The notes beneath the pieces were generated by a model, which saw only the letters and a program-made list of their open reading frames with translations, was not told the DNA's origin and did not search any database. From Candidatus Effluviviaceae Genus V sp. (GTDB taxonomy: Bacteria > Joyebacterota > Joyebacteria > Joyebacterales > Joyebacteraceae), in NCBI GenBank assembly GCA_014728125.1, contig WJMD01000057.1, positions 1 through 55,815 on the forward strand: 55,815 nucleotides of DNA, in the 5' to 3' direction. Position 1 is the first letter of the stretch. Each line of letters begins with the position of its first letter. A program made the position numbers and the translations under genes. Below, piece after piece: positions 10,625 through 55,815 of the stretch.

Positions 10625-11755
10625 ATGCGAACCGGAGGAGTCGGATTCCTGGTGACGGTCGGTGCGGTCGTGCTTGTCATGGGGACCGCTCAGACGGGCT
10701 TTGCAGGTGTTCTGCGGGTCGACCAGTCGGGAGACCCGGGGACGTACGCATCGATCAGGGACGCTGTGCAGATGGCAGCGGATGGAGACACGGTGTTGGT
10801 TGCGCCCGGGACCTATACCGGGCCCGACAACCGTAACATCCGGATACCGGATCTCGACATCAACATCGTCTCGGCCGCGGGGCCGGAGTCCACGGTCATA
10901 GATGTGGAGTGGACGCAGGCTGCCTTTCGTGCGCTAGACTACCAGCACAACGACTCGATGATCCGGGGCTTCACGTTCAAAAATGGGAGCTCCACCTGGG
11001 GGGCCGTGAAGGGTGACGGTCCGATGAGCGTGCGCGTCGTCGACTGCTGGTTTTCGGAGTGTGAAACGGGCATCCTGTGCGAGCAGAACTCGAACCTGAG
11101 GATCAGGGACTGCCTCTTCTCGAACAACCACTCGAGCATCGGCGGCAGCGCGATCCGCATCGACAGCTCTCAGCCCGAGATCACCGACTGCGTTTTCCGG
11201 GAGAACTCCTCCGACGGAAGCGGGGGGGCGATCGACTGCTGGGGCGCCATGTGCAAGCCACAGATCCAGGGATGCCTCTTCGTGGACAACACCGCCGGCG
11301 GATTCGGCGGAGCGATCTGCGGAAAGGAGTTCAGCAGGCCTACGATCACCAACTGCACGTTCGTCGGGAACTCCGCTGCGGAGTCTGGAGGAGCACTCTA
11401 TTTCGAGGCCCTCTACGGCGCCGTCCTCGAGAACTGCATCATCGCGTTCAACGGAGGGCCGAACCCCTTCGGATGCGGCACCAGCGACCCTCAGATCTGG
11501 CGGAGCCTCCTGTTCGGGAATGCTGGAGCGGACACAGTGTGTGGTTCCGTTCTGCAGTACGTCGTCACTGACCCCCGGTTCTGCGGAGTCACTGCGCGCG
11601 ATGTGACCCTCTGCGCCGACTCCCCGGCGCTCCCGGACTCACCGGAGAATCCCTGGGGAGAGCTGATCGGGTGCTTCGACCTCGGCTGCGGCCCCTGCGG
11701 GTCCGCCGTCGAGGGGGCCTCCTGGGGCGGGATCAAGGCGCTGTTCAGACCGTAG
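10625..11755 (+). CDS. Secreted right-handed beta-helix protein with C-terminal SWGGIKALFRP tail
   Basis: A 376-residue protein with a signal peptide (residues 1-27, ending TGFAG). Residues about 34-300 show DUF1565/parallel beta-helix repeats, starting GTYASIRDAVQMAADGDTVLVAPGTY and continuing as short turns with GGAI and C-x-F patterns (DCVFREN, GCLFVDN, NCTFVGN). Many paired Cys suggest disulfides outside the cytoplasm. The end region (DPRFCGV...DVTLCADSPAL...GCFDLGCGPC) and the terminal SWGGIKALFRP are shared in type with two other exported proteins here. It probably binds or degrades polysaccharide or acts at the cell surface; no catalytic residues are evident. Confidence 0.85.
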   Translation: MRTGGVGFLVTVGAVVLVMGTAQTGFAGVLRVDQSGDPGTYASIRDAVQMAADGDTVLVAPGTYTGPDNRNIRIPDLDINIVSAAGPESTVIDVEWTQAAFRALDYQHNDSMIRGFTFKNGSSTWGAVKGDGPMSVRVVDCWFSECETGILCEQNSNLRIRDCLFSNNHSSIGGSAIRIDSSQPEITDCVFRENSSDGSGGAIDCWGAMCKPQIQGCLFVDNTAGGFGGAICGKEFSRPTITNCTFVGNSAAESGGALYFEALYGAVLENCIIAFNGGPNPFGCGTSDPQIWRSLLFGNAGADTVCGSVLQYVVTDPRFCGVTARDVTLCADSPALPDSPENPWGELIGCFDLGCGPCGSAVEGASWGGIKALFRP

Positions 11756-11800
11756 CGTCAGTGCGGCACAGCGGAAAGCCCGGAGGAGGGGAGTCCTGCA

Positions 11801-13213
11801 GTGGAGCATCGCCGCACTCCCATGTTCGTGACGGTGTGCATCTTCGCACTGTGCGGAAGCTGTCTCGGACGTGGTCCTGCCGGTACCTTGCCTTCCGACG
11901 AACAGCCACCTGAACAACCCGGCCTGCAAAGCCTGCGCCGGATCGAGGTGACCGAGGACGGGGCGTGGTCGTGGCTCCCGGATGCACGGGCGGTTTGCCA
12001 TGCGGGTTCGACGAACAGGACGTACATCGGATGGGTCGACGGCGCAGGGGAGGTATGGGTGGCATCGTACGATCATGCGTCTCGGGCGATGCAGAGAACA
12101 CCCCTCACGGAAGGTCTTGGAGGTGACGACCATTCCAACCCCTCGCTCCTTGTGCTCGAGGACGGCCGCATCATGGCCTTCTACTCGGCCCACGGCGGCA
12201 GCGCGATTTACAGCCGGACCACGCTGCTGCCTGAGGACGTTACCGCGTGGTCCGACGCCCGGGCCGTGACCGCTGTGAACCGTTTCGCAGGTGGGCATTG
12301 GGGATACACCTACCCGAACGCCGTGCGGCTCGCAGATGCCGAAAGCCCGCTCTTTCTCTTCTTCAGGGGACCCGATTTCAAACAGTGGTTTGTGACGTCC
12401 ACCGATGGACTGCAGTGGTCCTCTGAACGGCAGCTCATGGTCGGGGCAGGCAGTAAGCCATACTTCAAGTATGCACCTGATGGCGCCGGTTCGGTGCACA
12501 TCGCCTTCACAGATGGGCACCCGCGAGGGGAGCCGGAGAACAGCATCTACTATCTCTGCTACAGAGATGGAGCGTTCTACGAGGCCGACGGAACACAGGC
12601 AGCCGAACTCGATGACCTTCCCTTCAGTCCCGACGATGCTGACACGGTCTATGGCGGATCGGCCGAGACAGGTCGTGCATGGGTATCGGACATCTCGCTC
12701 GACGGCGACGGACGGCCGGTCGTCGTCTATGCGACGTTCCCCGAGGTTGATGACCATCGATGCTACTACGCCAGATGGGACGGGTCGGCCTGGGTGCGTC
12801 GTGAGGTGACGCGAACCGGGTCTTCCTTTGCCACCGATCCGGTCATGCGAGTCGGGCGTGTCGATCGCCCTCTGTACTACATGTTCGGCGGAGCTTCGAT
12901 CGATCCGCTGGACGCGTCCCGTGTCTACGTCGCGCGCGAGGTCCGCTCGGTGTACGAAATCGAGCGGTGGTGCACACCCGACAGCGGGCGCACGTGGACC
13001 GGGTGGCCCATCACGAGGGGTTCCTCGGTCCACAACGTAAGACCCTTCGTGCCGTGGTGCGAGTTGGACGGGGGGCCTGAGGTACTCTGGCTGTCAGGCA
13101 CCTACGACGACTACGACTCCTATGAGATGTCCCTGCAGATGATGGTCCACGACAGCAGCGGTCTGTCGTCCGTCGAAAACCCCCATGAGGCGATGCGTCC
13201 GCCACCCGACTAG
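11801..13213 (+). CDS. Exported BNR-4-type beta-propeller protein
   Basis: A 470-residue protein beginning with GTG after GGAGGAGGGGAG, with an N-terminal hydrophobic segment (MFVTVCIFALCGSCLG) that may be a signal or lipoprotein signal. The body has BNR-repeat features: DDHSNPSLLVLEDGRIMAFYS, GYTYPNAVRL, TDGLQWSS and DSGRTWTGWP (Asp-box-like). This is the BNR_4 pattern found in polysaccharide lyase and sialidase-like propellers. The DDHSNP and HIAFTDGHPRGEPEN motifs favour a sugar-binding or lyase role, but the catalytic class is not settled. It lies 45 bases after the beta-helix gene, so co-transcription is likely. Confidence 0.72.
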   Translation: MEHRRTPMFVTVCIFALCGSCLGRGPAGTLPSDEQPPEQPGLQSLRRIEVTEDGAWSWLPDARAVCHAGSTNRTYIGWVDGAGEVWVASYDHASRAMQRTPLTEGLGGDDHSNPSLLVLEDGRIMAFYSAHGGSAIYSRTTLLPEDVTAWSDARAVTAVNRFAGGHWGYTYPNAVRLADAESPLFLFFRGPDFKQWFVTSTDGLQWSSERQLMVGAGSKPYFKYAPDGAGSVHIAFTDGHPRGEPENSIYYLCYRDGAFYEADGTQAAELDDLPFSPDDADTVYGGSAETGRAWVSDISLDGDGRPVVVYATFPEVDDHRCYYARWDGSAWVRREVTRTGSSFATDPVMRVGRVDRPLYYMFGGASIDPLDASRVYVAREVRSVYEIERWCTPDSGRTWTGWPITRGSSVHNVRPFVPWCELDGGPEVLWLSGTYDDYDSYEMSLQMMVHDSSGLSSVENPHEAMRPPPD

Positions 13214-13306
13214 CGCACGCAGGCGTTTCAGACCGGACCATCCATCAGCGCGCGTCGCCGAACGCCGCGACCCGGACCGGCGGCACAGGCGCGGGAGCGA
13301 ACCCGG

Positions 13307-13969
13307 GTGAACGAAGTCGAGACAGCCATGTGCCCATTGCGCGAGACATCTCTGAGTTCCTGGCTTCCCTGGCTGGTCGTTGCAGCAGCGCTCTGCTGTC
13401 AGGGAAGTGAGGCGTGTGCTTCCGATGGGATCCGCAATCCAACGGAGGTCGATATGGTCGCTGACACGACCCGAGTGTTCCCGGACGTCGGCGGCAGGAA
13501 CCTCGAGGGACGGGAGTTTCAGTTGCCCGGGGACCTCGAAGGTGAGCTGAACCTGCTCATGATCGCGTTCCAGAGGCAGCACCAGTCGCTCGTAGACAGC
13601 TGGATGCCGGCCGCGGCAGCGTGGGCGGCGTCCCATCCTCGCCTCCACTACTATGAGCTGCCGACGATCTCGAGCGGGTACCGGCTGTTCAGAGGTTTCA
13701 TCGACGGTGGCATGCGCGGCGGCATCGCGGACGTCGAGGCCCGCGAGCGGACGATCACGCTGTATCTGGACAAGGACGCGTTCCGCTCCGCGTTGGGACT
13801 TGCCGACGAGGAGACGATCTACGTGCTTCTCGTCGATCCAGGAGGGACGGTCTTCGAGCTTGTTGAGGGGCCCTATTCGGAGGAAAAAGCGCTCTCGCTG
13901 GAGCGGGGGATCGAGGCGTTGCTCCCTGAGAGCAGTCCGGGGTCGAGTGTCGAAAGCGATGTTCAGTAG
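13307..13969 (+). CDS. Exported thioredoxin-fold-like (ATP10/redoxin-type) protein
   Basis: A 220-residue protein with a hydrophobic signal segment (SSWLPWLVVAAALCC). After it, FPDVGGRNLEGREFQLPGDLEGELNLLMIAFQRQHQSLVDSWMP has the layout of a peroxiredoxin-like domain without a redox Cys pair, resembling the ATP10-like group. A later strand-turn-strand (EETIYVLLVDPGGTVFELVEGPYSEEKALSLE) matches the C-terminal part of thioredoxin folds. The lack of active-site Cys argues against a peroxidase. GTG at 13307 follows GGGAG; ATG at 13328 is an alternative start. Confidence 0.55.
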   Translation: MNEVETAMCPLRETSLSSWLPWLVVAAALCCQGSEACASDGIRNPTEVDMVADTTRVFPDVGGRNLEGREFQLPGDLEGELNLLMIAFQRQHQSLVDSWMPAAAAWAASHPRLHYYELPTISSGYRLFRGFIDGGMRGGIADVEARERTITLYLDKDAFRSALGLADEETIYVLLVDPGGTVFELVEGPYSEEKALSLERGIEALLPESSPGSSVESDVQ

Positions 13970-14074
13970 CGCTGCAGCCGTCGATAGGATGTTGTGCACC
14001 ATGGCATTGCCATCAAGGGCGCTGATTTCCCGCGAGGTGGGCGCGCGCTCAGAATGTTGGTTGTGAGGTCCGTC

Positions 14075-14854
14075 ATGAGCAGATCACTCGCGACGGCGAT
14101 GGTCATCCTGTTGATGACGTGCGGAGGTTCAGGGATGCCGGCCGATGTCCCGCTCGAGGACCTCGTCCGGGACAGTGACCTGGTCGTCGCCGGTACGCTG
14201 CGGTCGGTTTCAGCGTCCACGAGGTCCGGGGTCGACGTCGCTTCAGGGATCATCGATGTTGCGGATGTCCTGTGGGGAGATGCGGCGCCCGGTGACACGC
14301 TTCGGCTCGTGTGGAAGAACCAGTCCGGCCTTGCGCACCCGCGAGTCGAGTATGCGCACTTCACGGGCCGTGAGGTGGTCTGGCTCCTCACGACGCGGTC
14401 CGACGGGACCATTCGCGCTGATCATCCCGCCTGTGCTTCGGGTTCCCCCGAGCGTGTGGAGAAGGCGCTGCGCTCTGCCCGGGTGCTGACACGGTGGCCG
14501 AAGTACCGGTTCCGGGTTGGCGGCCCGGTCGAGATCGGGTACCGAAACGCAGCCGAGTCCCCGATGCTGTTTCCCGGTATCGTCCTCGAGGATGGAGCGC
14601 TGGTCGTCGACCCGTCCGTCCGCATTGCGCTGACCGCGGGGCGCGCGGGGACAGGGGTTCCGGTCCCTCCGAGGAAGGGTCGTCTGATCAGGGACCCTGC
14701 CATCGCACCGGTCCGCGTGCCGCCCGGGAGCCAGTGGACCGTCACGGTGGACCTGAACCAGCTCTATCCGCTGGGGCCCGCGGGCACGCACCACCTCACC
14801 GTGGACGTTGACGACAACGGGCCGCCGGACCGTCAGTGGTTCGAGATGGATTAG
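14075..14854 (+). CDS. Exported hypothetical protein
   Basis: A 259-residue protein with an N-terminal hydrophobic stretch ending in Cys (TAMVILLMTCGGSG), which could be a lipoprotein signal. The mature part starts PLEDLVRDSDLVVAGTLRSV, followed by VADVLWGDAAPGDTLRLVW, a pattern seen in secreted proteins of unknown function with an OB-like or beta-sandwich core. A second beta-rich domain follows (residues about 145-259). ATG at 14075 has GAGGT about 6 bases upstream; ATG at 14054 is possible. I cannot assign a role. Confidence 0.6.
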   Translation: MSRSLATAMVILLMTCGGSGMPADVPLEDLVRDSDLVVAGTLRSVSASTRSGVDVASGIIDVADVLWGDAAPGDTLRLVWKNQSGLAHPRVEYAHFTGREVVWLLTTRSDGTIRADHPACASGSPERVEKALRSARVLTRWPKYRFRVGGPVEIGYRNAAESPMLFPGIVLEDGALVVDPSVRIALTAGRAGTGVPVPPRKGRLIRDPAIAPVRVPPGSQWTVTVDLNQLYPLGPAGTHHLTVDVDDNGPPDRQWFEMD

Positions 14855-14864
14855 CGTAGGGGCC

Positions 14865-14918
14865 GCGGCACGGCGAAGCTCCGCCTGCCGGCCTGGGGCG
14901 CAGCTTGCGGCGTGCCGC
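14865..14918 (+). terminator. Long imperfect hairpin between genes
   Basis: GCGGCACG (14865-14872) pairs with CGTGCCGC (14911-14918), and GCGAAGCT inside pairs imperfectly with AGCTTGCG. It begins 10 bases after the stop and ends 11 bases before the next start. It lacks a U-tract, so it may slow RNA decay or terminate weakly. Confidence 0.4.
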
Positions 14919-14929
14919 AGGGAGGAACC

Positions 14930-15175
14930 ATGAGTCTGTCTACACGTCTGACGTCGGTCGCTGTCGGCCTCGGCATTCTGACGATCATCCTGGCGGTCCT
15001 GGGCTTCCTGGCGCTGCTTGATGTCCTTCAGGCAGTCGAGCAGAGCCTCGCCCTCGAACGGGCCGTCCTGTGGCTCGTTCTGATCGCCATCATACCAGTC
15101 CAGATCACGATGATCTGGACCGTGGTGCGGCTCAGGGCGAGCGTCGAGAGAGCCGGGGGCGCCGATCGCTCCTAG
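14930..15175 (+). CDS. Small two-helix membrane protein
   Basis: An 81-residue protein with two transmembrane segments at about residues 9-32 (VAVGLGILTIILAVLGFLALL) and 45-65 (VLWLVLIAIIPVQITMIWTVV). GGAGG precedes the ATG by 4 bases. No motif points to a function. The next gene has its own Shine-Dalgarno sequence and is unrelated in type. Confidence 0.65.
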   Translation: MSLSTRLTSVAVGLGILTIILAVLGFLALLDVLQAVEQSLALERAVLWLVLIAIIPVQITMIWTVVRLRASVERAGGADRS

Positions 15176-15304
15176 GTGCGCGCTCGGAGTGACGCGTGTG
15201 ACACGGGGTTTCGCGCCGTCTTCGGTTGCGTCCGACGCGCCATGGAGGCCGGCTTCTCAAAGGGTGTTTTCCAACGGCTCCCACGTAGAGCGATGGGAGG
15301 CACC

Positions 15305-15949
15305 ATGCGGTACACGATCGCGCTGTGTCTGGTGTGTGCTCTGGCTGCTTCGTCTCCGACGAGCGCCCAGGGCACCGAAGTGGAACTCGCCTGGGATGGC
15401 GGGGGAGAGATCTCTCCCATGTTCCCCCAACCGTCTGAGGGGCGGAAGGTGGCGGTGCTGTTTCAGGCCCCGGAGGGGTTCCCCTGGCTTGGGGCGATCA
15501 GGTGTTTCATCTGCAACGACAACTGGACGGACCCCGACCATCCGGAGATGACGACAACCGACCCATTCATCGCGACGGTGTGGGCTCCGGTACAGATCGA
15601 TGACGACATCTTCCCGGCTCATCCTCCCGTGGTCGAGTTCCACTCGGGGGCGCACTACTGGGAGGACTCGTGGGTCCGTTTCGATCTCCCGCAGGCGATC
15701 GACCTTCGCGATCCGACCATATTCCCCGAGCGTACGTTCTTCGTCGGGATGCAGTGGCTGAGCATCTACAACCCGGTTCTCGGCTACGACGCCGAGGTGA
15801 TCCCGGGCGGCCGCACCTGCAACACGTTCTCGATGGACTGGCAGTGCGGAACGGAGTCGGCCGCGATGATCCGCGCGGTTGTCTCGGACGAGGACGGAAC
15901 CTCGGTCGAGATCGACTCCTGGGGGAGGATCAAGGCCGTCTACGAGTGA
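15305..15949 (+). CDS. Secreted protein with C-terminal SWGRIKAVYE tail
   Basis: A 214-residue protein with a clear signal peptide (residues 1-22, ALAASSPTSAQG). The mature part is beta-rich and Trp/aromatic-rich, with a Cys pair (RCFICND) and another (RTCNTF...WQCGTE). Its central part (WVRFDLPQAIDLRDPTIFPERTFFVGMQW) resembles a jelly-roll strand pattern. The very end is SWGRIKAVYE, closely like the ends of the beta-helix proteins at 10625-11755 and 23726-24784, suggesting the same export or anchoring route. GGGAGG precedes the ATG. Confidence 0.7.
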   Translation: MRYTIALCLVCALAASSPTSAQGTEVELAWDGGGEISPMFPQPSEGRKVAVLFQAPEGFPWLGAIRCFICNDNWTDPDHPEMTTTDPFIATVWAPVQIDDDIFPAHPPVVEFHSGAHYWEDSWVRFDLPQAIDLRDPTIFPERTFFVGMQWLSIYNPVLGYDAEVIPGGRTCNTFSMDWQCGTESAAMIRAVVSDEDGTSVEIDSWGRIKAVYE

Positions 15950-16016
15950 TGTTGCCGGGCCTTCCGATGGGCGCCGCTTGGGCCACGCGATACCCTGCGG
16001 CATGTGAGGGGCGAGC

Positions 16017-16439
16017 GTGAAGCGGTTTCGAATAGACGAGCTGCGACCGAACAACTGGTACGTCAACCGCGCGAAGCTGGACCGCGTGCGGTCAGCCTGG
16101 GCGAACGGAGAGGAAGCGTCGCTGCCTCCGGTGCTCGTGACGCACATCGACGGTGAGCTGAGTCTGATCGACGGCCACGCCCGAACGCTGGGCGCCTTCG
16201 AGGCGGGCGCGATCGAGATCCCTGGCGAGTATCAGCCACTCGAGGAGATCGAGGGCTCGCGCGCACTCTATGAGCACATCCACCGGCGCGGCCCCGAGGT
16301 CGGCGTTCGCAGCGTGGAGGACCTCGTGGCCCGAGTCGTCTCACCGGAGGACCACGAGCGACTCTGGATCGGGTACTGCGAGGCCTGGCTGCGCGAGAAC
16401 CAGCGGGACCACGAGGATTCTGAGGAGCGGTCCGGCTGA
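16017..16439 (+). CDS. ParB/Srx-like-fold small protein
   Basis: A 140-residue cytoplasmic protein. The N-terminal 70 residues fit a ParB-N/sulfiredoxin-like fold: a strand with RIDELRPNNWYVNRAKLDRV, a strand with PPVLVTHIDGELSLIDGHARTLGAFEAG, where the DGHAR corresponds to the nucleotide-binding DGHHR-like motif of that superfamily. The C-terminal half is helical and acidic. ParB itself has GERR/GHRR motifs and a DNA-binding part that are absent here. The substrate is unknown. Start GTG with GAGGGGCGA upstream. Confidence 0.6.
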   Translation: MKRFRIDELRPNNWYVNRAKLDRVRSAWANGEEASLPPVLVTHIDGELSLIDGHARTLGAFEAGAIEIPGEYQPLEEIEGSRALYEHIHRRGPEVGVRSVEDLVARVVSPEDHERLWIGYCEAWLRENQRDHEDSEERSG

Positions 16440-16702
16440 TACCTGCAGCGTCCGCGGAGGCGGCGTTCCCATGCCGGTTCGACGGAAGTCCCACCCGCAC
16501 GTCTGCTCCCGGGGGCGGGCGGAGGGAAGGCATTCCGACAGCACGACACCCCCTTCCGCCGCGCCCGGGGGGTCTCAGATGACATCGGAAACCGAGCGGA
16601 TGTTCGAGCGCCTCTGCGCGCCCCGTGCCCCGCGGGCGTGATCTCCCGCGGAGGGCGCTGCGCGCTCTTTCATGTCGGACTGCCTGTCAAGGGAGGGAGC
16701 GG

Positions 16703-17455
16703 ATGACGAACGAATTGCGCGGTGAGGTCTCACCCCGGCTCCTTGCGAGAAGCGCCGGTGTGCTCTATCTCGTCATCATCGTCTTCGGCCTCTTCGGTGA
16801 GCTCTCCGTTCGCTCGGGCCTCGTTGTCCCCGGGGACGTCGCCGCCACGGCGACGAACATCGTCGCTTCCGGCGGGCTCTTCCGCCTGGGCTTTCTGACG
16901 GACTCCGTGATGTTCCTGTGCGACGTCGCACTGGCAGTTCTTCTCTACGTCCTTCTGAGGCCCGTCGGCAAGACGGTCGCGCTCGTGGCGATGTGCTTCC
17001 GGTTGACCCAGACGGCAGTCATCGCGCTCAACCTCCTTCACTACCACGCCGCGATGCTCGCGCTGAGCGGGCGGGCGTACACCGCCTCGTTCGGTCCGGA
17101 CCAGCTCAATGCGCTGGCGTCCTTTTTCCTGGACCTGCACAGCCACGGCTACGATCTCGGCCTGTTGCTCTTCGGGGTGCACTGTCTGCTGCTGGGCTAC
17201 CTCATATACCGCTCGGGATATCTCCCGAAGGTCCTCGGCGTCCTGCTTGTGGCGGCCGGTTTCACGTATCTCATCGGAAGTTACACCCGTTTCCTGGTGC
17301 CTCAGTACGTTCAGACCGTTGCACCGATCTACGCAGTTGCTATCATTGCTGAGGTCGGCATCTGTCTGTGGCTGCTCATCCGAGGGGTGAACGTCGAACT
17401 CTGGGAGAGCGCGTCTCGCAGGCCGCATGGCCGGGTGGCGTCTTCACCGAGGTAG
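16703..17455 (+). CDS. DUF4386 membrane protein
   Basis: A 250-residue integral membrane protein with about six transmembrane helices. The order (LARSAGVLYLVIIVFGLFGEL, then VMFLCDVALAVLLYVLLRPVGK, LALVAMCFRLTQTAVIALNLL and a final LHSHGYDLGLLLFGVHCLLLGYLIYRSGYLPKVLG) is typical of DUF4386. The family has no known activity. AGGGAGGGAG precedes the ATG. The 263 bases between this gene and the previous one hold only a short unsupported reading frame (16579-16641). Confidence 0.85.
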   Translation: MTNELRGEVSPRLLARSAGVLYLVIIVFGLFGELSVRSGLVVPGDVAATATNIVASGGLFRLGFLTDSVMFLCDVALAVLLYVLLRPVGKTVALVAMCFRLTQTAVIALNLLHYHAAMLALSGRAYTASFGPDQLNALASFFLDLHSHGYDLGLLLFGVHCLLLGYLIYRSGYLPKVLGVLLVAAGFTYLIGSYTRFLVPQYVQTVAPIYAVAIIAEVGICLWLLIRGVNVELWESASRRPHGRVASSPR

Positions 17456-17488
17456 CGTGAACGACACAGGAACTGGAGGCGAGTACCC

Positions 17489-17977
17489 GTGGAGAACACT
17501 CCTGCACCCGAAGTGCGGACCCTTCTCGCGTACGTCAGCGCAGGAGGTGCGGCAGGGGAGTACGCCGGCGTCATCGCCGACGTCCTGACGTCCGAGGGAT
17601 ACGACGTGGAGGTCGTCGACCTGAAGCGAGAGAAGGTCAGGGACCTCGCACCGTACGCGAACGTGGTGGTCGGGACCGGCGTCCGGATGATGATGGTCTA
17701 CCGTCACGCCAAGCGCTTTCTCGCGCGCAGAGACCTCAGGGGGAAGCGGCTGGCGATCTATCTCGCAAGCGGGATGGCGGTCGAGGAACCTGAGCAGGCA
17801 AGGGGGCGGTTCCTCGAAACGCTCATCAAGAGGAACCGGCTCACGCCGGTGACGTACATCGCGCTGCCCGGGAAGATGCCGGGCGGGGAGCGCGGGAGGC
17901 TCATCGACCACACGGACCCCGACGCGGCCAGAGCCTGGGCGGAGGACCTCGCGGGCAGGCTTCGTTCAGCCGACTGA
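17489..17977 (+). CDS. Flavodoxin-domain protein
   Basis: A 162-residue protein. Strand one and the loop TLLAYVSAGGAAGEYAGVIADVL match a flavodoxin-like FMN phosphate loop, though Ser/Thr-x-T is replaced by SAGGAA. It continues with VEVVDLKREKVRDLAPYANVVVGTGVRMMMVYRHAKRFL and the strand KRLAIYLASGMA, as in flavodoxin_5/HemG-type proteins. It probably carries FMN and moves electrons, but HemG activity cannot be inferred. GTG start at 17489 after GGAGGCGAG. Confidence 0.75.
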   Translation: MENTPAPEVRTLLAYVSAGGAAGEYAGVIADVLTSEGYDVEVVDLKREKVRDLAPYANVVVGTGVRMMMVYRHAKRFLARRDLRGKRLAIYLASGMAVEEPEQARGRFLETLIKRNRLTPVTYIALPGKMPGGERGRLIDHTDPDAARAWAEDLAGRLRSAD

Positions 17978-18062
17978 CCACCTGTCCGTTCGTGCGACGT
18001 GTCGTGGGGCATTCGAAGGGAGACCGAAGATCAGGAACAGACTCCTCGGACTGGGGCTGTGG

Positions 18063-18494
18063 GTGTTCGGTTCGCTCGCCGCGGGCTGGGTGGGTTCCCA
18101 GTTCAGGCCCGGAGAGTGGTACGCCGCGCTCGTCAAGCCGGCGTGGACACCGCCGAACGCTGTCTTCGGCCCGGTGTGGACGATTCTCTACGTGCTGATG
18201 GGCGTGGCGGCCTGGCTCGTCTGGCGCCGTGCGGGCTTCTCGGAAGCCAGGGGGCCCCTGTGGCTCTTCATCGCACAGCTTGTGCTCAACGCGCTCTGGT
18301 CCTGCATCTTCTTCGGCGCGCACGAGCTTCTGCCGGCTTTCGTCGAGATCGTCGTGCTGTGGGTTGCGATCGCGGTCACGCTGGTGTGGTTCTGGAGGGT
18401 GGTTCCGGCGGCAGGGCTGCTCCTGGTCCCGTATCTCGCCTGGGTCACGTTCGCCTCCGCCCTGAACTTCCAGTTGTGGCGCCTCAACGGGTGA
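18063..18494 (+). CDS. tspO: TspO/MBR family membrane protein
   Basis: A protein of at least 143 residues with five transmembrane helices and the TspO signatures WYAALVKPAWTPPNAVFGPVWTILYVLMGVAAWLVW and NFQLWRLN. TspO proteins bind porphyrins and other hydrophobic ligands and are linked to stress signalling. The frame extends 15 or more residues upstream (KIRNRLLGLGLWVFGSLAAG), which the first helix needs, but no ATG, GTG or TTG is found there. AAGGGAGA lies just before an ATC codon, so the true start may be non-standard or altered; GTG at 18063 is the first ordinary start. Confidence 0.88.
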   Translation: MFGSLAAGWVGSQFRPGEWYAALVKPAWTPPNAVFGPVWTILYVLMGVAAWLVWRRAGFSEARGPLWLFIAQLVLNALWSCIFFGAHELLPAFVEIVVLWVAIAVTLVWFWRVVPAAGLLLVPYLAWVTFASALNFQLWRLNG

Positions 18495-18572
18495 TCGCTG
18501 TGTGGCCGTTGCTGGGTGGCCTCCGCCTCGCGGGACACGGCGAACGACGGAACACTGCATCCAGAAACCTGA

Positions 18573-19922
18573 ATGGGCGGACAACGCGTGGCGGACGCAG
18601 AGCGGAGCTTCTTCATCAAGGGTGAGCACGTCGGGCTCGCCCGACGGGTGCCGGCGGACGATCGCCTCGTGCATGAGAACTGGCGTGATCCGGAGGTTCA
18701 GCGGGCCTACAACGTGCGTCCGCCGTGGGACGACCTCGATTCCTTCCGTGCCTTCCACGCGTCGCCTGAGCGGAGGCCTTTCCGGTTCGACGCTGCGGTC
18801 GTGGACCTTAGGGACGGCTCCTGCCGCGGCGTCGTGACGCTGGCTCCTCCGGAACGGGAACCTGACATCAGCATCAGTCTCTTCCGCGGGTCCCGGGGCG
18901 GGGGACTCGGCGCCGAGGCGCTCGGACTCGCGCTCGAGTACTCCTTCCGAAAACTCGAACTCGACCACGTCGTCGCGGGCGCCTACGAGCACAACGTTGT
19001 GAGCATCGCGCTTCTCGAGAAGCTCGGGTTCAGGAGAGAGCCCGGCGCAGACCTGACGGAGGACGACGCCTTCGGGCCCGGCAGCGTGCGGCAGTTGGGA
19101 TTCAGACTGGACCGGGTCGATTGGGAGGAGCGGGGCCGCGGCGCCCGCGATCGGCCAGAAGAGGGCGGCGTCTCGGATGCCGGGGGTTCCACGGACAGCG
19201 GCTTCGCGAATGTGTACGAGGACGAGCAGAGAGCCTCGGCGTACGCGGAGCTCGCGTTCCCCGGGACGTACTCCCTTGCGTTCAGGGACCTGCCGGAGCT
19301 CTTCCAACGGCACGTCACGGGAAAGCGTGCTCTGGACTTCGGGTGCGGTACCGGCAGGTCGACGCGGTTCCTCGAGGAGCACGGCTTCGAGGTCGTCGGG
19401 GTCGACATCTCCCCAGCGATGCTCACCCGGGCCCGCGAGCTGGACCCTGAGGGTGACTACCGGCTGGTCGACGAAGAGGGCGAAGGGCTTGAGGGTGGTG
19501 CCTTCGACCTTGTTCTGTCCGCCTTCACATTCGACAACATCCCGACCCTCGGAGAGCGCGGGCGGACCCTGACAGGCCTCGGGAGAATCCTGTCCGGCGA
19601 CGGCTGTCTGGTCTGCATCGTGTCGTCCCCTGAGATCTACGTCAACGAGTGGACGTCGTTCAGCACGAGCAACCACCCGGAGAACAGGAAGGCGCGAAGC
19701 GGCGACGTCGTACGCATCGTCATGCTCGATGTGCCCGACAGGCGTCCGGTCGAGGATGTGGTGTGCTTCGATGAGGACTACCGGCGGCTCTTCCGGCAAG
19801 CCGGTCTGGACGTCGTCGAGATGCGGCGGCCCCTCGCCACGGGCGCCGAGCCGATCGAGTGGAAGTCCGAGTGCTCGGTCGCGCCGTGGACCATCTACGT
19901 TCTGAAGGCCGACGAGCGCTGA
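18573..19922 (+). CDS. Fusion of a GNAT acetyltransferase and a SAM methyltransferase
   Basis: A 449-residue protein. Residues about 12-180 are a RimJ-like GNAT domain: LARRVPADDRLVHENWRDPEVQRAY, DISISLFRGSRGGGLGAEALGLAL, and VVAGAYEHNVVSIALLEKLGFRRE (motif B). A Gly/Asp/Arg-rich linker follows, then a class I methyltransferase at about 215-445 with motif I ALDFGCGTGRSTRFLEEHG, motif II VVGVDISPAMLTRARELD and a CFDEDYRRLFRQAGLDVVE end. I do not know this order as a standard family. The two activities may act on one substrate, for example a metabolite or protein amine. TG-rich DNA around 18560 gives no clear ribosome site. Confidence 0.85.
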   Translation: MGGQRVADAERSFFIKGEHVGLARRVPADDRLVHENWRDPEVQRAYNVRPPWDDLDSFRAFHASPERRPFRFDAAVVDLRDGSCRGVVTLAPPEREPDISISLFRGSRGGGLGAEALGLALEYSFRKLELDHVVAGAYEHNVVSIALLEKLGFRREPGADLTEDDAFGPGSVRQLGFRLDRVDWEERGRGARDRPEEGGVSDAGGSTDSGFANVYEDEQRASAYAELAFPGTYSLAFRDLPELFQRHVTGKRALDFGCGTGRSTRFLEEHGFEVVGVDISPAMLTRARELDPEGDYRLVDEEGEGLEGGAFDLVLSAFTFDNIPTLGERGRTLTGLGRILSGDGCLVCIVSSPEIYVNEWTSFSTSNHPENRKARSGDVVRIVMLDVPDRRPVEDVVCFDEDYRRLFRQAGLDVVEMRRPLATGAEPIEWKSECSVAPWTIYVLKADER

Positions 19923-20036
19923 CCGGGGGGCGTCGACCGCGTTCGGCGGTGGACGAAGCGCGTCGTGCCGGAGTGGGCGCCCCCGGGCCTTTCGCTTGAG
20001 CGGAGCGCCCGAACCGGCGCTGGTTGGAGACGTGCT

Positions 20037-20456
20037 ATGCGAAGACTCTGTGCTCTGCTTCTGGTCGGTCTGACGCTGACCTCCTGCGGGGACGTCCCGC
20101 CGGAGCAGGCCGAGCGACCTGACCCGGCGATGGAGGAATGGGCCGACGCGTGGGATCGCCGTGAGACCGTCCGACAGCCCGAGTGGGCCGGCGGGCGCGA
20201 GGTGCTCCGGTGGCCAGACGGGGCCGGACGGGACCTGCCGCGCGCGTGGGCAGAGGAGCGCGGCCTCAGCGGCCTGACGCGGGCACAGCTCGTCGAGCAG
20301 TTCGGCGCTCCGGACACCACAGTCGTCAACGAGTCGGTCGGGGGCGTGCTCGTGCTCTACGACACGTTCGGTCTCATCGTGTACGAGGGCGTCTGCACCG
20401 GCCTGGTGCCGCGGTCGGCGCCCTTCGAGGAGTATTTCGCGCAGCCCGACCTGTGA
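20037..20456 (+). CDS. Small lipoprotein, unknown function
   Basis: A 139-residue protein with a lipobox signal (LCALLLVGLTLTSCGD; Cys at about residue 17). The mature part is acidic and Trp-rich, then has LSGLTRAQLVEQFGAPDTTVV..GGVLVLYDTFGLIVYEGVCTG, which resembles the BamE/SmpA-type small beta-alpha domain that many outer-membrane assembly lipoproteins carry. That resemblance is weak. The start ATG has GGAGACG upstream. Confidence 0.65.
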   Translation: MRRLCALLLVGLTLTSCGDVPPEQAERPDPAMEEWADAWDRRETVRQPEWAGGREVLRWPDGAGRDLPRAWAEERGLSGLTRAQLVEQFGAPDTTVVNESVGGVLVLYDTFGLIVYEGVCTGLVPRSAPFEEYFAQPDL

Positions 20457-20573
20457 GGGGACAGGGCCGGGGTCGGTTCGATGTGAGGGCTTGTCCGGTC
20501 TCTTCAGGCATGGTAAGCAGGTGCCTCCGGGTGGACAGGAGCGCAGGACCGCGGGGCTCGGAAGGAGTGAAGG

Positions 20574-20792
20574 ATGTCTGACGACAAACGAGCGCTACCG
20601 GTCGTGTTCATCGCTCTCGGTATCAGCTTTCTGGGCGTGGGTGTCGCCATGAGCGCGGCGCTCGCGCAGAGCGGTCTTCCGATGGCGGGCATGGGCATGT
20701 TCGGATTGGGCATCGTCTTCATCGTCCTGGGCGTTGCGAAGAGACGCGAGGCCCGTCGTCAGAACGGCGATGAGGACGAACACTCGAGCTAG
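20574..20792 (+). CDS. Small two-helix membrane protein
   Basis: A 72-residue protein with transmembrane segments at about residues 8-25 and 30-50 (LGISFLGVGVAMSAAL and AGMGMFGLGIVFIVLGV), and a charged C-terminus (KRREARRQNGDEDEHSS). GGAAGGAG precedes the ATG by 9 bases. It overlaps the following gene remnant in a different frame. Unknown role. Confidence 0.65.
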   Translation: MSDDKRALPVVFIALGISFLGVGVAMSAALAQSGLPMAGMGMFGLGIVFIVLGVAKRREARRQNGDEDEHSS

Positions 20793-20988
20793 GGGCGATT
20801 CGTGTGCCGCGAAGGGCACGAGCAGCTGTCGCGAACTCACCGGCCTCCATCTGACGACGAGCGAGGGCATCGAGCAGCTCATGACATCGGGCACGTCGGA
20901 GGATGCCTGCTTCCCGGCAGTTGCCGCAGCCTACAGGATAGCGGTCGAGATACTGAGGGAGCAGGAACTCGGCGAGAGAACCGCGTAG
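20770..20988 (+). pseudogene. Remnant of a C_GCAxxG_C_C-family redox protein
   Basis: The frame encodes SCRELTGLHLTTSEGIEQLMTSGTSE-like sequence followed by CFPAVAAAYRIAVEILREQEL. This corresponds to the C-terminal third of the putative redox-active C_GCAxxG_C_C family, where C-x-E-L-x-G-x-D-L-x-T and a distal Cys are conserved. The N-terminal part with the GCA motif is absent, and the DNA there encodes the previous membrane protein. A deletion that fused the remnant next to that gene explains it. An ATG at 20770 is available but probably fortuitous. Confidence 0.55.
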
Positions 20989-21004
20989 CAGGAGTCCCAG
21001 GGGA

Positions 21005-21502
21005 ATGGGAGGCAGGGTGGACTTCACCTACCGGGCGATGGACCCGAACGGAACAGAGATCTACGGCGAGATCCGCGGGTCCGACAGGGCCGACGCTGAA
21101 CGCAGACTGCGTGCCGAGGGCCTCGATCCCCTTGAGATTACGCCTGCCGATGAACTGGCTCGTCCCGGAGAGAGATCGGCCGGCTTCACGGAGACGACGA
21201 GCGACAGGGGACAGGGGTTCGCCAGCGGCTGCTTGTCGGGCTGGGCGCTCGGTCTCGTCCTCATCGTCCTGGGACTCTTGCTGACCTTCACGTGGATCGG
21301 TGCCGTCATAGGCATCCCTATGATCATCATCGGCATCATCGTGCCGTTCGTCGTGCCCTTCTTCGGACTGCGAGCCGTGCGCGGTCCCTGTCCGTACTGC
21401 GGCTCCGAGGTTCGCTCGGGGCGGACCGACCCGCTGGTGCGGTGCAGGACGTGCGGCCGCGTGATCGTCGTACGTGACGGGAGGTACTACAGGGCGCAGT
21501 GA
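21005..21502 (+). CDS. GspF-N-like domain joined to membrane helices and a zinc ribbon
   Basis: A 165-residue protein in three parts. Residues 5-50 (FTYRAMDPNGTEIYGEIRGSDRADAERRLRAEGLDPLEI) match the short N-terminal motif of type II secretion/pilus F proteins. Residues about 75-120 hold two transmembrane helices. Residues 125-160 form a zinc ribbon (CPYCGSEV...VRCRTCGRVIVV). This is far too short for GspF and has no second F domain. It may be a membrane assembly or sensing factor. An in-frame GTG at 21017 with GGGAGG upstream is an alternative start. Confidence 0.65.
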   Translation: MGGRVDFTYRAMDPNGTEIYGEIRGSDRADAERRLRAEGLDPLEITPADELARPGERSAGFTETTSDRGQGFASGCLSGWALGLVLIVLGLLLTFTWIGAVIGIPMIIIGIIVPFVVPFFGLRAVRGPCPYCGSEVRSGRTDPLVRCRTCGRVIVVRDGRYYRAQ

Positions 21503-21557
21503 CCCTGGTACGCTGCCCGGTGCTCGTGCGCCACAAGGCTCGAACGACGGGAGGACC

Positions 21558-22082
21558 ATGGCCCCTCTGGGCCCTCCGTTCGATGACAGATTCGGCCCGC
21601 ACTGGGTCAACTACGTTCTTCAGAGCGCCTTCGCGGCCGCCAGCATCTTCGTGGTCCTCGCGGCGCTCAGACAGCAGAACCTCGTCGTCGCCGCCTCGCT
21701 CGCCGCGACGGCGTTCACGGTCTTCGCCGTGCCGAGCAGCGTCACGGCATCGATGCGGAACGTCGTCGGAGGCCACGTGATCGGCCTTCTCTTCGGCTCC
21801 GTCTTTGCGCTCATCCAGGTCGACGCGGTCATCGCTCAGGATGCGATGTACGCCCTCGCCGTCGGCGGGGCCATGTTCACGATGGCCGTGACGAACACGG
21901 AGCACCCGCCCGCCGCCGGAACAGCGCTCGGCGTGCTCATGACCGGCTTCTCGTGGCGAATCGTGCTCGGCGTGGTCGTGGGCGTGCTCGTGCTGGCGCT
22001 GCTGCACAGGCTTCTCAGGCCGTTCCTCAGGGACCTCGTGGCCGCCCCGGAGACCGCCGCGCTGCACCGCGCGGATGGGTGA
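21558..22082 (+). CDS. HPP-family integral membrane protein
   Basis: A 174-residue membrane protein with four hydrophobic helices and the family motif EHPPAAGTALG near residues 113-123. Members have been linked to nitrite transport in plastids and cyanobacteria; the substrate here is unknown. The pattern LVVAASLAATAFTVFAVPSSVTASMRNVVGGHVIGLLFG is also characteristic. GGGAGG precedes the ATG. Confidence 0.87.
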   Translation: MAPLGPPFDDRFGPHWVNYVLQSAFAAASIFVVLAALRQQNLVVAASLAATAFTVFAVPSSVTASMRNVVGGHVIGLLFGSVFALIQVDAVIAQDAMYALAVGGAMFTMAVTNTEHPPAAGTALGVLMTGFSWRIVLGVVVGVLVLALLHRLLRPFLRDLVAAPETAALHRADG

Positions 22083-22154
22083 GCCGGGTCGACGACGCGA
22101 CCTACCACCCCAACGTTCAGAAGATCCTGCCGGGTGCGGATTGACGCACAGTCA

Positions 22155-22184
22155 TTGACTGAAGCATCCTCAACGCAGTAAGAT
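22155..22184 (+). promoter_or_regulatory. Sigma-70-like promoter upstream of the RDD gene
   Basis: TTGACT (22155-22160), an 18-base spacer and TAAGAT (22179-22184). It lies in the 242-base gap after the HPP gene and would drive the RDD and alpha/beta-hydrolase pair. Confidence 0.6.
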
Positions 22185-22324
22185 GGAGTTGAGGCTTCCA
22201 TGAGGACAGCGACCCGACAGAGAGAGCTGCGGTCCGGACGCCGTCAGCGGCGCCCGTCGCCGCAGTTTCTGCGTCTTCGCCACGGAGGGGTGCCGGGCTC
22301 CTGCGGTGAGGCACGACGGGAGCA

Positions 22325-22792
22325 ATGGTCATGAGACGCTGCGCCGGTGCATCCGTTCGGCTCGTCGCGGTCCTGGTCGACCTGCTCATCATGACGCTGT
22401 TCTTCTTTCCCATCACCAGGCTCGTCAAGGGCACCTGGCTCATGTCCGCCGCGGACCATCGCTGGGCGGCAGGCTGGTTCGTGACCGATCCGCTGTGCAT
22501 CGCCTTCCTCATCGTGATGTTCGTCTACTTCGTGCTCTTCGAGGCCCTGGCCGGCGCGACTCCCGGGAAGCTCGTCTCCGGCGTCCGCGTCATCGGGCCG
22601 GACGGAGGTCGTCCCGGTCTCGTGCGCTCGCTCGTGCGCAATCTGCTGCGCGTGGTCGACGGCCTTCCTGCGTTCGGGATTCTCGCGGCCGTGCTCATCT
22701 CGACGTCGGAGGAGTGCGCCCGGTTCGGCGACCGGGTGGCCGGAACGCGCGTCGTCCGGACGCGCCCGATCGACGCGGGGGATGCCAGGTGA
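22325..22792 (+). CDS. RDD-family membrane protein
   Basis: A 155-residue protein with the RDD pattern: an Arg in the first helix start (GASVRLVAVLVDLLIM, the R and two Asp that name the family), a second helix (LCIAFLIVMFVYFVLFEALAGATPGKLVSGVRVIG with the GATPGK motif) and a third (RSLVRNLLRVVDGLP). RDD proteins may be transporters or assembly factors; function is mostly unknown. Its stop overlaps the next start by 4 bases (GTGA), so the two are coupled. Confidence 0.82.
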   Translation: MVMRRCAGASVRLVAVLVDLLIMTLFFFPITRLVKGTWLMSAADHRWAAGWFVTDPLCIAFLIVMFVYFVLFEALAGATPGKLVSGVRVIGPDGGRPGLVRSLVRNLLRVVDGLPAFGILAAVLISTSEECARFGDRVAGTRVVRTRPIDAGDAR

Positions 22793-23661
22793 ACGGCAAC
22801 GACTGGATCGACCGCGCGGCGTACCCGTTCGAGTCGCACTGGTTCGACGTGCCGGCCGGCCGGATGCACTACGTCGACGAGGGACGTGGCCCACCGATCC
22901 TCATGGTCCACGGGAACCCGACGTGGTCGTTCCTGTATCGACATCTGATCCGTCGGCTGGCTCCGAACCACCGGTGCGTCGCACCCGACCACATCGGCTT
23001 CGGTCTCTCGGATAAGCCCGTCGGCTGGTCGTACCGCCCGGAGGAGCACGCCCGCAATCTCGCGAGGTTCATCGAGGCGCTCGAGCTCGCCCGGTTCACC
23101 ATCGTCGTGCAGGACTGGGGCGGACCGACGGGGCTCTCGTACGCGCTCGAGCACCCCGAGAGGGTGGCCGGCCTCGTCATCCTCAATACGTGGATGTGGC
23201 CGGTCGACGATGACACGTACTACAGGGCCTTCAGCGGGTTCGTGGGGGGACCTGTCGGCCGGTTCCTCATCAGGCGCTTCAACTTCTTCGTCCGTGTCGT
23301 GATGCCCGAGGCCTACGGCGACAGGCGCCTGCTGACGAAGGCCATCCACGAGCACTATCTGACGCCCCTCGGAACCCCGGTCGAGCGGACCGGATCGGCG
23401 GTCTTCCCGCGCGAGATCGTCGGGTCGACGCCGTGGCTCCGGAAATTGTGGCAGCGGCGCGAGGCGCTCCAGGGGAAGCGGGCGCTCATCGCCTGGGGGA
23501 TGAAGGACATCGCGTTTCGGGAGAAGGAGCTCCAGACGTGGATCGAGGCGCTTCCGGGCGCCGAGGTACTCAGGCTCGAGTCGGCGGGTCACTATGTGCA
23601 GGAAGAGGCCCCGGAGGAACTTGGAGAGGCGATCGCGTCACTCATCGACGGATCTGCGTGA
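22789..23661 (+). CDS. Haloalkane dehalogenase-like alpha/beta-hydrolase
   Basis: A 290-residue alpha/beta-hydrolase with features of haloalkane dehalogenases: the oxyanion/halide loop HGNPTWSFLYR (Asn43), nucleophile motif VVQDWGGPTG (Asp109 with Trp110 as halide ligand), an acidic residue after AWGMKD and the catalytic His in SAGHYVQEE. In the family these hydrolyse C-halogen bonds to alcohols. Related epoxide hydrolases share part of this pattern, so activity is not certain. GTG start at 22789, overlapping the RDD gene. Confidence 0.85.
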   Translation: MNGNDWIDRAAYPFESHWFDVPAGRMHYVDEGRGPPILMVHGNPTWSFLYRHLIRRLAPNHRCVAPDHIGFGLSDKPVGWSYRPEEHARNLARFIEALELARFTIVVQDWGGPTGLSYALEHPERVAGLVILNTWMWPVDDDTYYRAFSGFVGGPVGRFLIRRFNFFVRVVMPEAYGDRRLLTKAIHEHYLTPLGTPVERTGSAVFPREIVGSTPWLRKLWQRREALQGKRALIAWGMKDIAFREKELQTWIEALPGAEVLRLESAGHYVQEEAPEELGEAIASLIDGSA

Positions 23662-23725
23662 GTTTCTCGGGAGTGACGGCGACGGCTTCGAGGGCGGTTC
23701 GAGAACAGATGGAAGGGGGAGCACG

Positions 23726-24784
23726 ATGAAACGCATCTGCATCGGTGTCTGTCTGCTTCTGGTCCTGCCTCTGTCGGCGTCGGGGGCGTTCGTAACGGTC
23801 GATCCGGACGGTACGGGCGACTACCTTACGCTGCCGGATGCCTGGGCGAGTGTCGGCGCGGGGGACACGGTGCTCATGTCCCCGGACGTTCACCAGGTCG
23901 GCGGCGGCTCGACCGGATGGCCTCTGACGTTGGGTCCCGACAGTCCATCCGTCGTCGGCATCGAGGGTGCCGACCAAACCGTGCTCGCCGGCGACGGCGT
24001 GACCTCCGCGTTCTTCATCCCGCAGGACGTCTGGGACGCGCACATGGACCTCCGCGGCCTGATGTTCCTGGACATCGCCGAGATCATTGAGCGCGGCGGT
24101 GAGTACGGCGAAGCCGGGGGCACGCTCGTCTTCATTGACAACGTGGTGATGAACTGCGGGTCCTCACACGCGCTCGACGCCTCCCAGTGCCGGGAGGAAA
24201 GCGTCATCCGCGGGAATGTCATAACGGCGAATCCGGGCTCCGGTCTCTGGACCTATCACTACTGGGGCACGATCGAGAACAACGAGATCTCGTACAACGC
24301 GAGCGGCATCGTCGGCGCGTGCTGTGAGGAACCGGTGATCGACTGCAACTACATTCACAACAACACGGAGTACGGCATCTGGACCGGTTTCAACTACACG
24401 GTCGAGAACAACATCATCGAGTCGAACGGCGACGCCGGACTGCTGCTCGTGTCCGACGGGACCGTGCAGAACAACATCATCAGGCACAACGCCGTCGGCG
24501 TTCGGCACGAGGGACTTCCCGAGACCGAACTCAGGCACAACGACATATACGGCAACACGAACTACGACCTCGAGGTGACGGACGGCCAGACGTGGATCTG
24601 GTACGCGACGTGGAACTGGTGGGGGACGACAGACCCCGACGTGATCGACGCGAACGTCTTCGACTGTGAGGACGACCCCGGCATCGGTGTCTGCGTGACG
24701 ACATACCCGTTCTGCAACATGCCCGGCTGCGCCTCCAGCGCGCAACCGGCCTCATGGGGCGCGATCAAGGCGCTGTACCGCTGA
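23726..24784 (+). CDS. Secreted parallel beta-helix protein with C-terminal SWGAIKALYR tail
   Basis: A 352-residue protein with a signal peptide (ICIGVCLLLVLPLSASGA). The N-terminal part FVTVDPDGTGDYLTLPDAWASVGAGDTVLMSPDVHQ marks a pectate-lyase-like beta helix. The middle has NosD-like turns (NNEISYNASGI, CNYIHNNTEYGIW, NNIIESNGDAGLLL, NNIIRHNAVGV, HNDIYGNTNYDL) and ends WNWWGTTDPDVIDANVFDCEDDPGIG, typical of such proteins. The last ten residues are the SWGAIKALYR tail shared with two other exported proteins in the window. It is likely a cell-surface or secreted carbohydrate-acting or adhesive protein. Confidence 0.85.
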   Translation: MKRICIGVCLLLVLPLSASGAFVTVDPDGTGDYLTLPDAWASVGAGDTVLMSPDVHQVGGGSTGWPLTLGPDSPSVVGIEGADQTVLAGDGVTSAFFIPQDVWDAHMDLRGLMFLDIAEIIERGGEYGEAGGTLVFIDNVVMNCGSSHALDASQCREESVIRGNVITANPGSGLWTYHYWGTIENNEISYNASGIVGACCEEPVIDCNYIHNNTEYGIWTGFNYTVENNIIESNGDAGLLLVSDGTVQNNIIRHNAVGVRHEGLPETELRHNDIYGNTNYDLEVTDGQTWIWYATWNWWGTTDPDVIDANVFDCEDDPGIGVCVTTYPFCNMPGCASSAQPASWGAIKALYR

Positions 24785-55300: not shown

Positions 55301-55815
55301 TCGGTTGCTCGCGGGAAGAGATCGTCGGGAGACCGCCGTATCACTTCTCGCCGGACACTCAGCCGGACGGAAGGGATTCCAGGGACAAGGCTCTCGAGAA
55401 GCTGTCAGCGGTCTCGGAGGGCGAGCCCCAGTCCTTCGAGTGGACCCATTGCCGTGCGGACGGAACGCCGTTCGACGCGGAGGTCGGCCTGACCTCGTTC
55501 ACGCTCGATGGGAAGCAGTACATCCAGGCGTTCGTCAAGGACATCACGAAGAGGAAGCGCGCCGAGGAGAACGTCAGGAGCATCGCGCGGTTCCCGGCCG
55601 AGAACCCGAACCCCGTGATCCGTGTCCAGCGGGACGGGCGAATACTGTACGCGAACGAAGCGACCGACTGGCTTCTCGACCAGTGGGGCTGTGAGGTCGG
55701 CCACTACCTCCCGCCGCGGCTTCGCGAGACGGTGATGGGGGCCTACAAAAGGGAGAGGACCGGCCGTCTGGAGGCGAACGTCTCCGACCGGACCTACTCG
55801 TTCGTGCTGGCGCCC
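52396..55815 (+). CDS. Very large multi-PAS sensor protein, 5' part (open at the window end)
   Basis: The frame is open for 1140 codons from ATG at 52396 (GGAGG upstream) to the window end. About nine PAS/PAC units follow each other, with repeated PAC ends (VTERKTMES, VTERKLAEE, TTERWKAQE, TTEQVENER, ITKRKRAEE) and starts such as EEHYREVVENAHEAIIV and EEHYRQVVENADEAITV. The second PAS has Cys204, Cys215 and Cys218 (KCYEAL...GPCPFC), as in PAS domains with a Cys cluster. No transmembrane helix or kinase domain is seen yet; a histidine kinase, GGDEF or similar output should follow beyond the window. Confidence 0.87.
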   Translation, partial: MDDGRIDSSGHEAAGDGRASDPGKRAPCGREPTAFCSRALERSGVAIAVIDGTDLVHASGALASLTGYTYDELAAMNAGELAERVLLADDTASVLDYHSRLVRGEDVPLHIEYRIRRKDGSVRWLEETAELVSDDGEPTVRAFLIDVTERKTMESRADRERRQLLSIFEGLDEYVYVADPDTHEILFINQSLKEVFGDITGRKCYEALQGREGPCPFCTNDRIFGENAGTSYVWEFRNENDRHWYRCIDKAIEWPDGRLVRAEIALDIDDLKTAEERLRAGEARYRSIFEGAAVSLCELDFSGFTEWVLRLGDRGVGDVGAYCVEHPDAVMRACGTMRILDANRESLRLFAVPSREELPESVAGFACPESMDFICGLARAVADGRNCYRAGTIIQTLDGEKLNVIMTVTLEPKSSSAFISVTDVTELKRIEQALRESEEHYREVVENAHEAIIVIQDGVIAFVNPRGAASLDLTPDDLVGRPFTDFIHPEERELLKERYQHRLAGEDVLQDYTYRSVTEDGRVVWGEVHATRITWDGRPATLNFVADVTERKLAEEARVAALAERAGIMEAMADGIVVVSREGRVLDVNPAMLELLGAAEKEVVGHDVEELTERFIAPEDVENALAGFAETARGDTPAPYVLHVVSATGETIPVSFKVSQLKTEEHDHPRILVDFHDMREILSVEHALRKSEAERRLFMEAATDAFTLWDADLNLVDANAEACRRLGLARDQLVGLNMREVYPPSTEPGVLDRYVEVIRTGDPYCAFDVSPAGELAGKRYSVKAFPVGDGLGLITTDTTERWKAQEALRRSEEHYRQVVENADEAITVAQDGRLKFFNRRLVDILGYDESEIRGMSFVEFIHPDDREMVAERHARRLNGENPQSQYGFRVVTKQGDLRHVRINAVRFEWGGRPATLNFILDTTEQVENERAIRERTQRLRLLFDRANDAILVMNGEVFIDCNERALEMFGCSREEIVGRPPYHFSPDTQPDGRDSRDKALEKLSAVSEGEPQSFEWTHCRADGTPFDAEVGLTSFTLDGKQYIQAFVKDITKRKRAEENVRSIARFPAENPNPVIRVQRDGRILYANEATDWLLDQWGCEVGHYLPPRLRETVMGAYKRERTGRLEANVSDRTYSFVLAP

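Follow-up and report, generated by a model that had tools for sequence, protein, structure and literature searches.

To our knowledge, the signals of the type IX secretion system (T9SS) are understood only as folded C-terminal domains (CTDs) recognized by PorV or PorP shuttles. The known signals are beta structures, unlike the tail described here, which is predicted to be helical. The type B CTD is a complete domain that has five motifs, and a shuttle gene is genetically linked to it (PMC12618676). Shorter signals have also been reported: CTDs of 43-55 residues are functional in Prevotella intermedia (PMC11969387), export of GFP by the T9SS needs no more than the last 22 residues of the HBP35 CTD (PMC4804311), and CTDs tolerate extension at their extreme C-terminus, although it is essential (PMC11285876). 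These precedents make a very short signal plausible, and the tail is probably an undescribed signal of this kind, sending proteins to the cell surface.

The window, which is the whole stretch of DNA analyzed, comprises 55,815 nucleotides of Candidatus Effluviviaceae Genus V sp. (contig WJMD01000057.1). The original prediction was that three mutually unrelated exported proteins encoded in it share a short C-terminal tail resembling a sorting signal. Translation places all three tails immediately 5' of a stop codon (Table 1), and a heuristic predicts a signal peptide on each carrier. The protein types were also as proposed, two being beta-helix proteins by Pfam and the one ending at 15949 beta-rich, with no match in a Pfam scan. 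The lack of relationship holds for the latter against the beta-helix pair and not within the pair: a single BLAST group holds the proteins ending at 11755 and 24784, which are distantly homologous, so the window contains two unrelated cargo types instead of three. A search of the window for the DNA pattern of WGxIK finds the three tails and nothing else, while dinucleotide shuffles of the window gave a mean of 0.04 occurrences and never three. No close relatives of window protein P0002 were found in the named genomes; by one protein, Ca. Effluviviaceae Genus IV and MAGs filed under Eisenbacteria are among the named genomes closest to the window. The window ends inside a gene (52396-55815) whose product, with at least five tandem PAS domains, has 1139 residues or more and continues past the window end.

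Table 1. Tail-bearing proteins of the window and their tails.
Feature	Coordinates	Strand	Evidence
Exported beta-helix protein, 376 aa, Sec signal peptide and tail	10625..11755	+	Pfam Beta_helix 7.7e-15, Chlam_PMP 4.7e-14; signal-peptide heuristic
C-terminal tail SWGGIKALFRP	11720..11752	+	Translation; pattern search
Exported beta-rich protein, ~218 aa, start 15293 or 15305, Sec signal peptide and tail	15293..15949	+	Signal-peptide heuristic
C-terminal tail SWGRIKAVYE	15917..15946	+	Translation; pattern search
Exported beta-helix (NosD-like) protein, 352 aa, Sec signal peptide and tail	23726..24784	+	Pfam Beta_helix 4.4e-16, NosD 1e-11; signal-peptide heuristic
C-terminal tail SWGAIKALYR	24752..24781	+	Translation; pattern search

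The tail pattern is genuine and extends far beyond the window. In the 2.5-Mb genome from which the window comes (the home genome), the DNA pattern for [ST]WGxIK has 35 matches and a reversed control pattern none. Among the loci read in this genome, the frame ends 10-12 codons past the Ser or Thr in 29 of 30. The exception is an internal SWGSIK on contig C38 (L309:5840-7177), in a protein of the L010 tail family with an unrelated ending close to the contig end, possibly through misassembly or a frameshift; we treated it as a chance occurrence. Signal peptides were found by the heuristic in 27 of the 29 rows of frames with a usable start (two rows being duplicates); locus L002 proved clearly exported once its full contig was read, and the frames of L021 and L007 are cut before the N-terminus. 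Variants with Ser for Gly (TWSTVKNLYR, TWSGIKALYG, SWSTIKGMYR) are likewise carried by signal-peptide proteins.

With the tail removed, 26 tail proteins of the home genome fall into 14 groups without detectable similarity, and hence the tail is not a domain shared by descent. Proteome statistics draw on the home-genome matches and on the 928 genes predicted in 1.2 Mb of the relative G003. The core is rare away from C-termini: WGx[IVLM]K occurs internally only twice in this part of G003, in neither case after Ser or Thr. The carriers are exported; for two with a non-exported score the start appears to have been miscalled, and one of these is homologous to a signal-peptide protein. Either a shared C-terminal domain or a motif common inside proteins or in cytoplasmic ones would speak against a sorting-type signal; both were looked for and neither held, and the sequences thus favor the signal first proposed.

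All 20 genomes examined in the home family carry the tail, with 19-83 matches each. Under a stricter pattern reading through the stop codon, 52 of 386 genomes were positive, and the control gave no match in any of the 386. Chance, a compositional artifact or a repeated DNA element overlapping gene ends is a negligible explanation for these numbers, given the zero counts of the controls in the home genome and in the larger set; against a repeated element, the tail is conserved as protein, with free variation of its codons. Besides the home family, at least five families (f99, f135, f174, f215 and f67) have multiple copies, and in all of them, the home family included, the tail sits on many unrelated exported proteins; family f104 has two copies. 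Among the matches listed, the named genomes with the tail belong almost entirely to FCB-group lineages: Eisenbacteria, Effluviviaceae, Krumholzibacteriota, Latescibacterota, Zixibacteria, Cloacimonadota, Delongbacteria, KSB1, Calditrichota, Ignavibacteria, Kapabacteria, Hymenobacter and Adhaeribacter. The Poribacteria-like genome G058 (loci L247-L273) has about ten LamG-type and similar proteins with the shortened ending K-L-x-T-T-W-G-x-I-K-x-x, and further variants were found in G167, G348 and G215.

In Ignavibacteria, Kapabacteria, Hymenobacter, Calditrichota and Delongbacteria, the tail is carried by one orthologous exported protein of ~135 residues, consisting of a fibronectin-III-like domain and the tail, which is single-copy across several T9SS phyla. 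AlphaFold2 models its body as a confident beta-sandwich, which resembles fibronectin-III domains in the PDB. In an alignment of 46 of these proteins the W, G, I, K, F and R of the tail are invariant against a mean column identity of 33%, an invariance that is partly selected, because the sequences were found through the tail, although the pattern left the body free. Depending on the lineage, the gene adjoins Maf, SpoIID-like, MATE or RdgB-like genes (names from sequence reading), and among its neighbors no partner is conserved across phyla. At three loci from Cloacimonadota and one other genome (L043, L092 and L168), the tail (NRSWGRIKSIYR, PSWGRIKFLYR) is found instead on lamin-tail/OB-fold-like exported proteins. 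The fibronectin-III protein was also considered as the ancestor of all tails, and this was rejected, no full-length orthologue having been detected in the home family.

The tail logo reads (S/T)P-V-E-x-x-[ST]-W-G-x-I-K-A-[LM]-[YF]-R-COOH, and accommodates up to three additional residues; its part from outside the home family is biased toward the search pattern by which those sequences were selected. For one tail family, that of the fibronectin-III protein, AlphaFold2 predicts a C-terminal helix over the tail (pLDDT ~71-76). The hydrophobic moment did not discriminate between beta-sheet and helix, so the helix is predicted solely from the AlphaFold2 model. As had been proposed, the tail lies outside the known signals: no NCBIfam or Pfam model covers it, a scan of ten tail proteins against NCBIfam gave no CTD match at E<=1, and the logo has neither a hydrophobic stretch nor an LPxTG- or PEP-type motif, which sets it apart from PEP-CTERM, LPxTG and GlyGly-CTERM signals as defined. 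A search of the open-access literature yielded neither the motif nor a comparable tag.

The tail is associated with SprA, the outer-membrane translocon of the T9SS, which was detected in 117 of the 386 genomes. Outside the home family, all 32 tail-bearing genomes have SprA, against 99 of the 366 genomes overall (hypergeometric 1e-20, ignoring kinship). Within the family it was found in 18 of 20 genomes, the other two being 57% and 78% complete. Conversely, 67 SprA-positive genomes have no strict tail, and G058, which bears tail variants, gave only a weak SprA match. The link is a correlation confounded by phylogeny, since both the T9SS and the tail occur in the FCB group. The suggestion that a transport gene might track the motif across genomes was partly borne out for SprA and not for the copy number of the PorV/PorQ family, which does not distinguish tail-rich from tail-free SprA genomes and so offers no sign of an expansion providing a tail-specific receptor. 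No shuttle gene linked to the tail was found either. GldM is the canonical motor protein of the T9SS, part of the proton-driven GldL/GldM motor; its model (TIGR03517), which may miss divergent motors, found it in two of 30 genomes tested, both tail-negative, and detected none in the home genome or the other tail genomes tested.

The home genome encodes SprA (contig C135) together with adjacent PorU and PorV (C149), and has at least 78 matches to the type A CTD. In G003, the beta-helix proteins related to those of the window have one of two endings, the tail or a type A CTD. The L010 family, which has the tail, is homologous to the N-terminal part of CTD proteins of ~960 residues; no protein with both endings was found in the 1.2 Mb of G003. 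As judged from the sequences, then, the carriers are exported, and the tail is C-terminal, conserved, interchangeable with a CTD and, in our sample, confined to genomes with SprA.

Further observations were made in the home genome. On contig C135, SprA (L306:12211-18459, minus strand) adjoins an apparent nusA-infB-rbfA-truB-ribF-rpsO-pnp translation cluster, its genes named by sequence reading; this linkage may be conserved. On contig C44 (L308:7519-13599), two paralogous tail genes lie directly upstream of a gene whose 1517-aa product has a CTD and a match to a gingipain-type (C25) peptidase. A signal-peptide protein on contig C123 (L310:9825-10535, minus strand) ends in PSTWLLLSTGLVGVGALVRRRFRG, which is PEP-CTERM-like and may represent a third kind of C-terminal sorting signal in the home genome.

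We propose, with a probability of roughly 0.52, that the tail is a minimal C-terminal export and sorting signal of a type IX-like secretion system, used in place of a CTD. The carriers, with their predicted signal peptides, would cross the inner membrane by Sec. Their last ~10-14 residues would consist of a flexible linker, (S/T)PVE, and a short amphipathic helix, WGxIKAxYR, which runs to the carboxylate, and this helical tail may be recognized by the SprA translocon or by a PorV/PorP-type shuttle. It would thereby replace the ~70-residue beta-sandwich CTD that other substrates bear in the same cells, and the carriers would end at the cell surface.

In an unlikely though respectable alternative, the tail is a docking or anchoring peptide: whatever the route by which the carriers arrive at the surface or in the periplasm, the amphipathic helix binds a common receptor, an outer-membrane protein or a surface scaffold, present only in SprA lineages. 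Invariant W, G, I, K, F/Y and R on a predicted short helix are typical of a peptide ligand, and the homologue in G003 of the window protein ending at 15949 lacks the tail and begins with a lipoprotein-like N-terminus, which suggests that the tail and a lipid anchor may be alternative modes of fixing. Docking alone, however, leaves unexplained both the strict association with SprA and the exchange for type A CTDs on homologous cargo, and the comparison of PorV-family copy number revealed no receptor gene. Still less likely is a role of the tail as a mark for proteolysis or transpeptidation after export, by a sortase-like or C-terminal processing enzyme such as those of PEP-CTERM or PorU systems. 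Its extreme C-terminal position on dozens of unrelated carriers would suit such a step, as would the PorU homologue of the home genome, but the tail has only ten residues, with neither a hydrophobic stretch nor a motif of the LPxTG or PEP type, and no protease gene was seen adjoining tail genes. Improbable, too, is a periplasmic chaperone, quality-control or retention tag unconnected with passage of the outer membrane. The Sec signal peptides would be in keeping with it, and short helical C-terminal peptides could act as chaperone ligands; against this, the cargo (beta-helix, LamG, MAM-like and lamin-tail-like) is typical of surface proteins, and homologues of some carriers bear surface-export CTDs.

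Returning to the minimal-signal reading, the tail could, with odds a little short of even, constitute a third class of type IX signal: about ten residues long, helical and present in many FCB-group phyla, it would label dozens of surface proteins in uncultured phyla and have a single conserved bearer, the fibronectin-III protein, possibly a T9SS component, in cultured lineages such as Hymenobacter and Melioribacter. If the proposal is right, the minimum T9SS signal would be defined by a ten-residue tail that stands in for the CTD on the same cargo; this tail would offer a compact tag for directing proteins to the FCB bacterial surface, and the surface proteomes of several uncultured phyla would become readable from sequence. 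Since the fibronectin-III protein is conserved in cultured Hymenobacter, the hypothesis is open to experiment now.

Among known systems, PEP-CTERM, GlyGly-CTERM and MYXO-CTERM resemble the tail in being short, modular and C-terminal, with dozens of copies on unrelated exported proteins, but they combine a motif with a transmembrane helix, a basic end and a dedicated processing enzyme, whereas the tail has no hydrophobic stretch. The short CTDs of P. intermedia are T9SS signals far below the classic CTD length, as the tail would be; they have 43-55 residues in three beta-strands with motifs B, D (GxY) and E (PMC11969387), whereas the tail has ~10 conserved residues, a (S/T)PVE linker, no GxY and a predicted helix. 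The type B CTD with its PorP/SprF shuttles (PMC12618676) is a second signal class beside type A, as the tail would be another; the tail has no match to TIGR04131 and no linked shuttle was found for it. The type A CTD (TIGR04183, Por_Secre_tail) is also C-terminal on many unrelated Sec-exported surface proteins, resides in the same genomes and alternates with the tail on homologous cargo; it is a beta-sandwich of ~70 residues, whereas the tail has ~10, is predicted to be helical and does not match TIGR04183. The analogy with type IX systems drawn in the original prediction stands as far as the sampled tail genomes carry SprA, and not in the sense that the tail is a type A or type B CTD. As with T9SS substrates, the carriers have Sec signal peptides and the host has SprA/Sov, PorU and PorV, and the tail is probably a C-terminal surface-sorting signal linked to the T9SS. 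It is T9SS-like in its distribution and modular use, yet falls outside the definitions of type A, type B and short CTDs.
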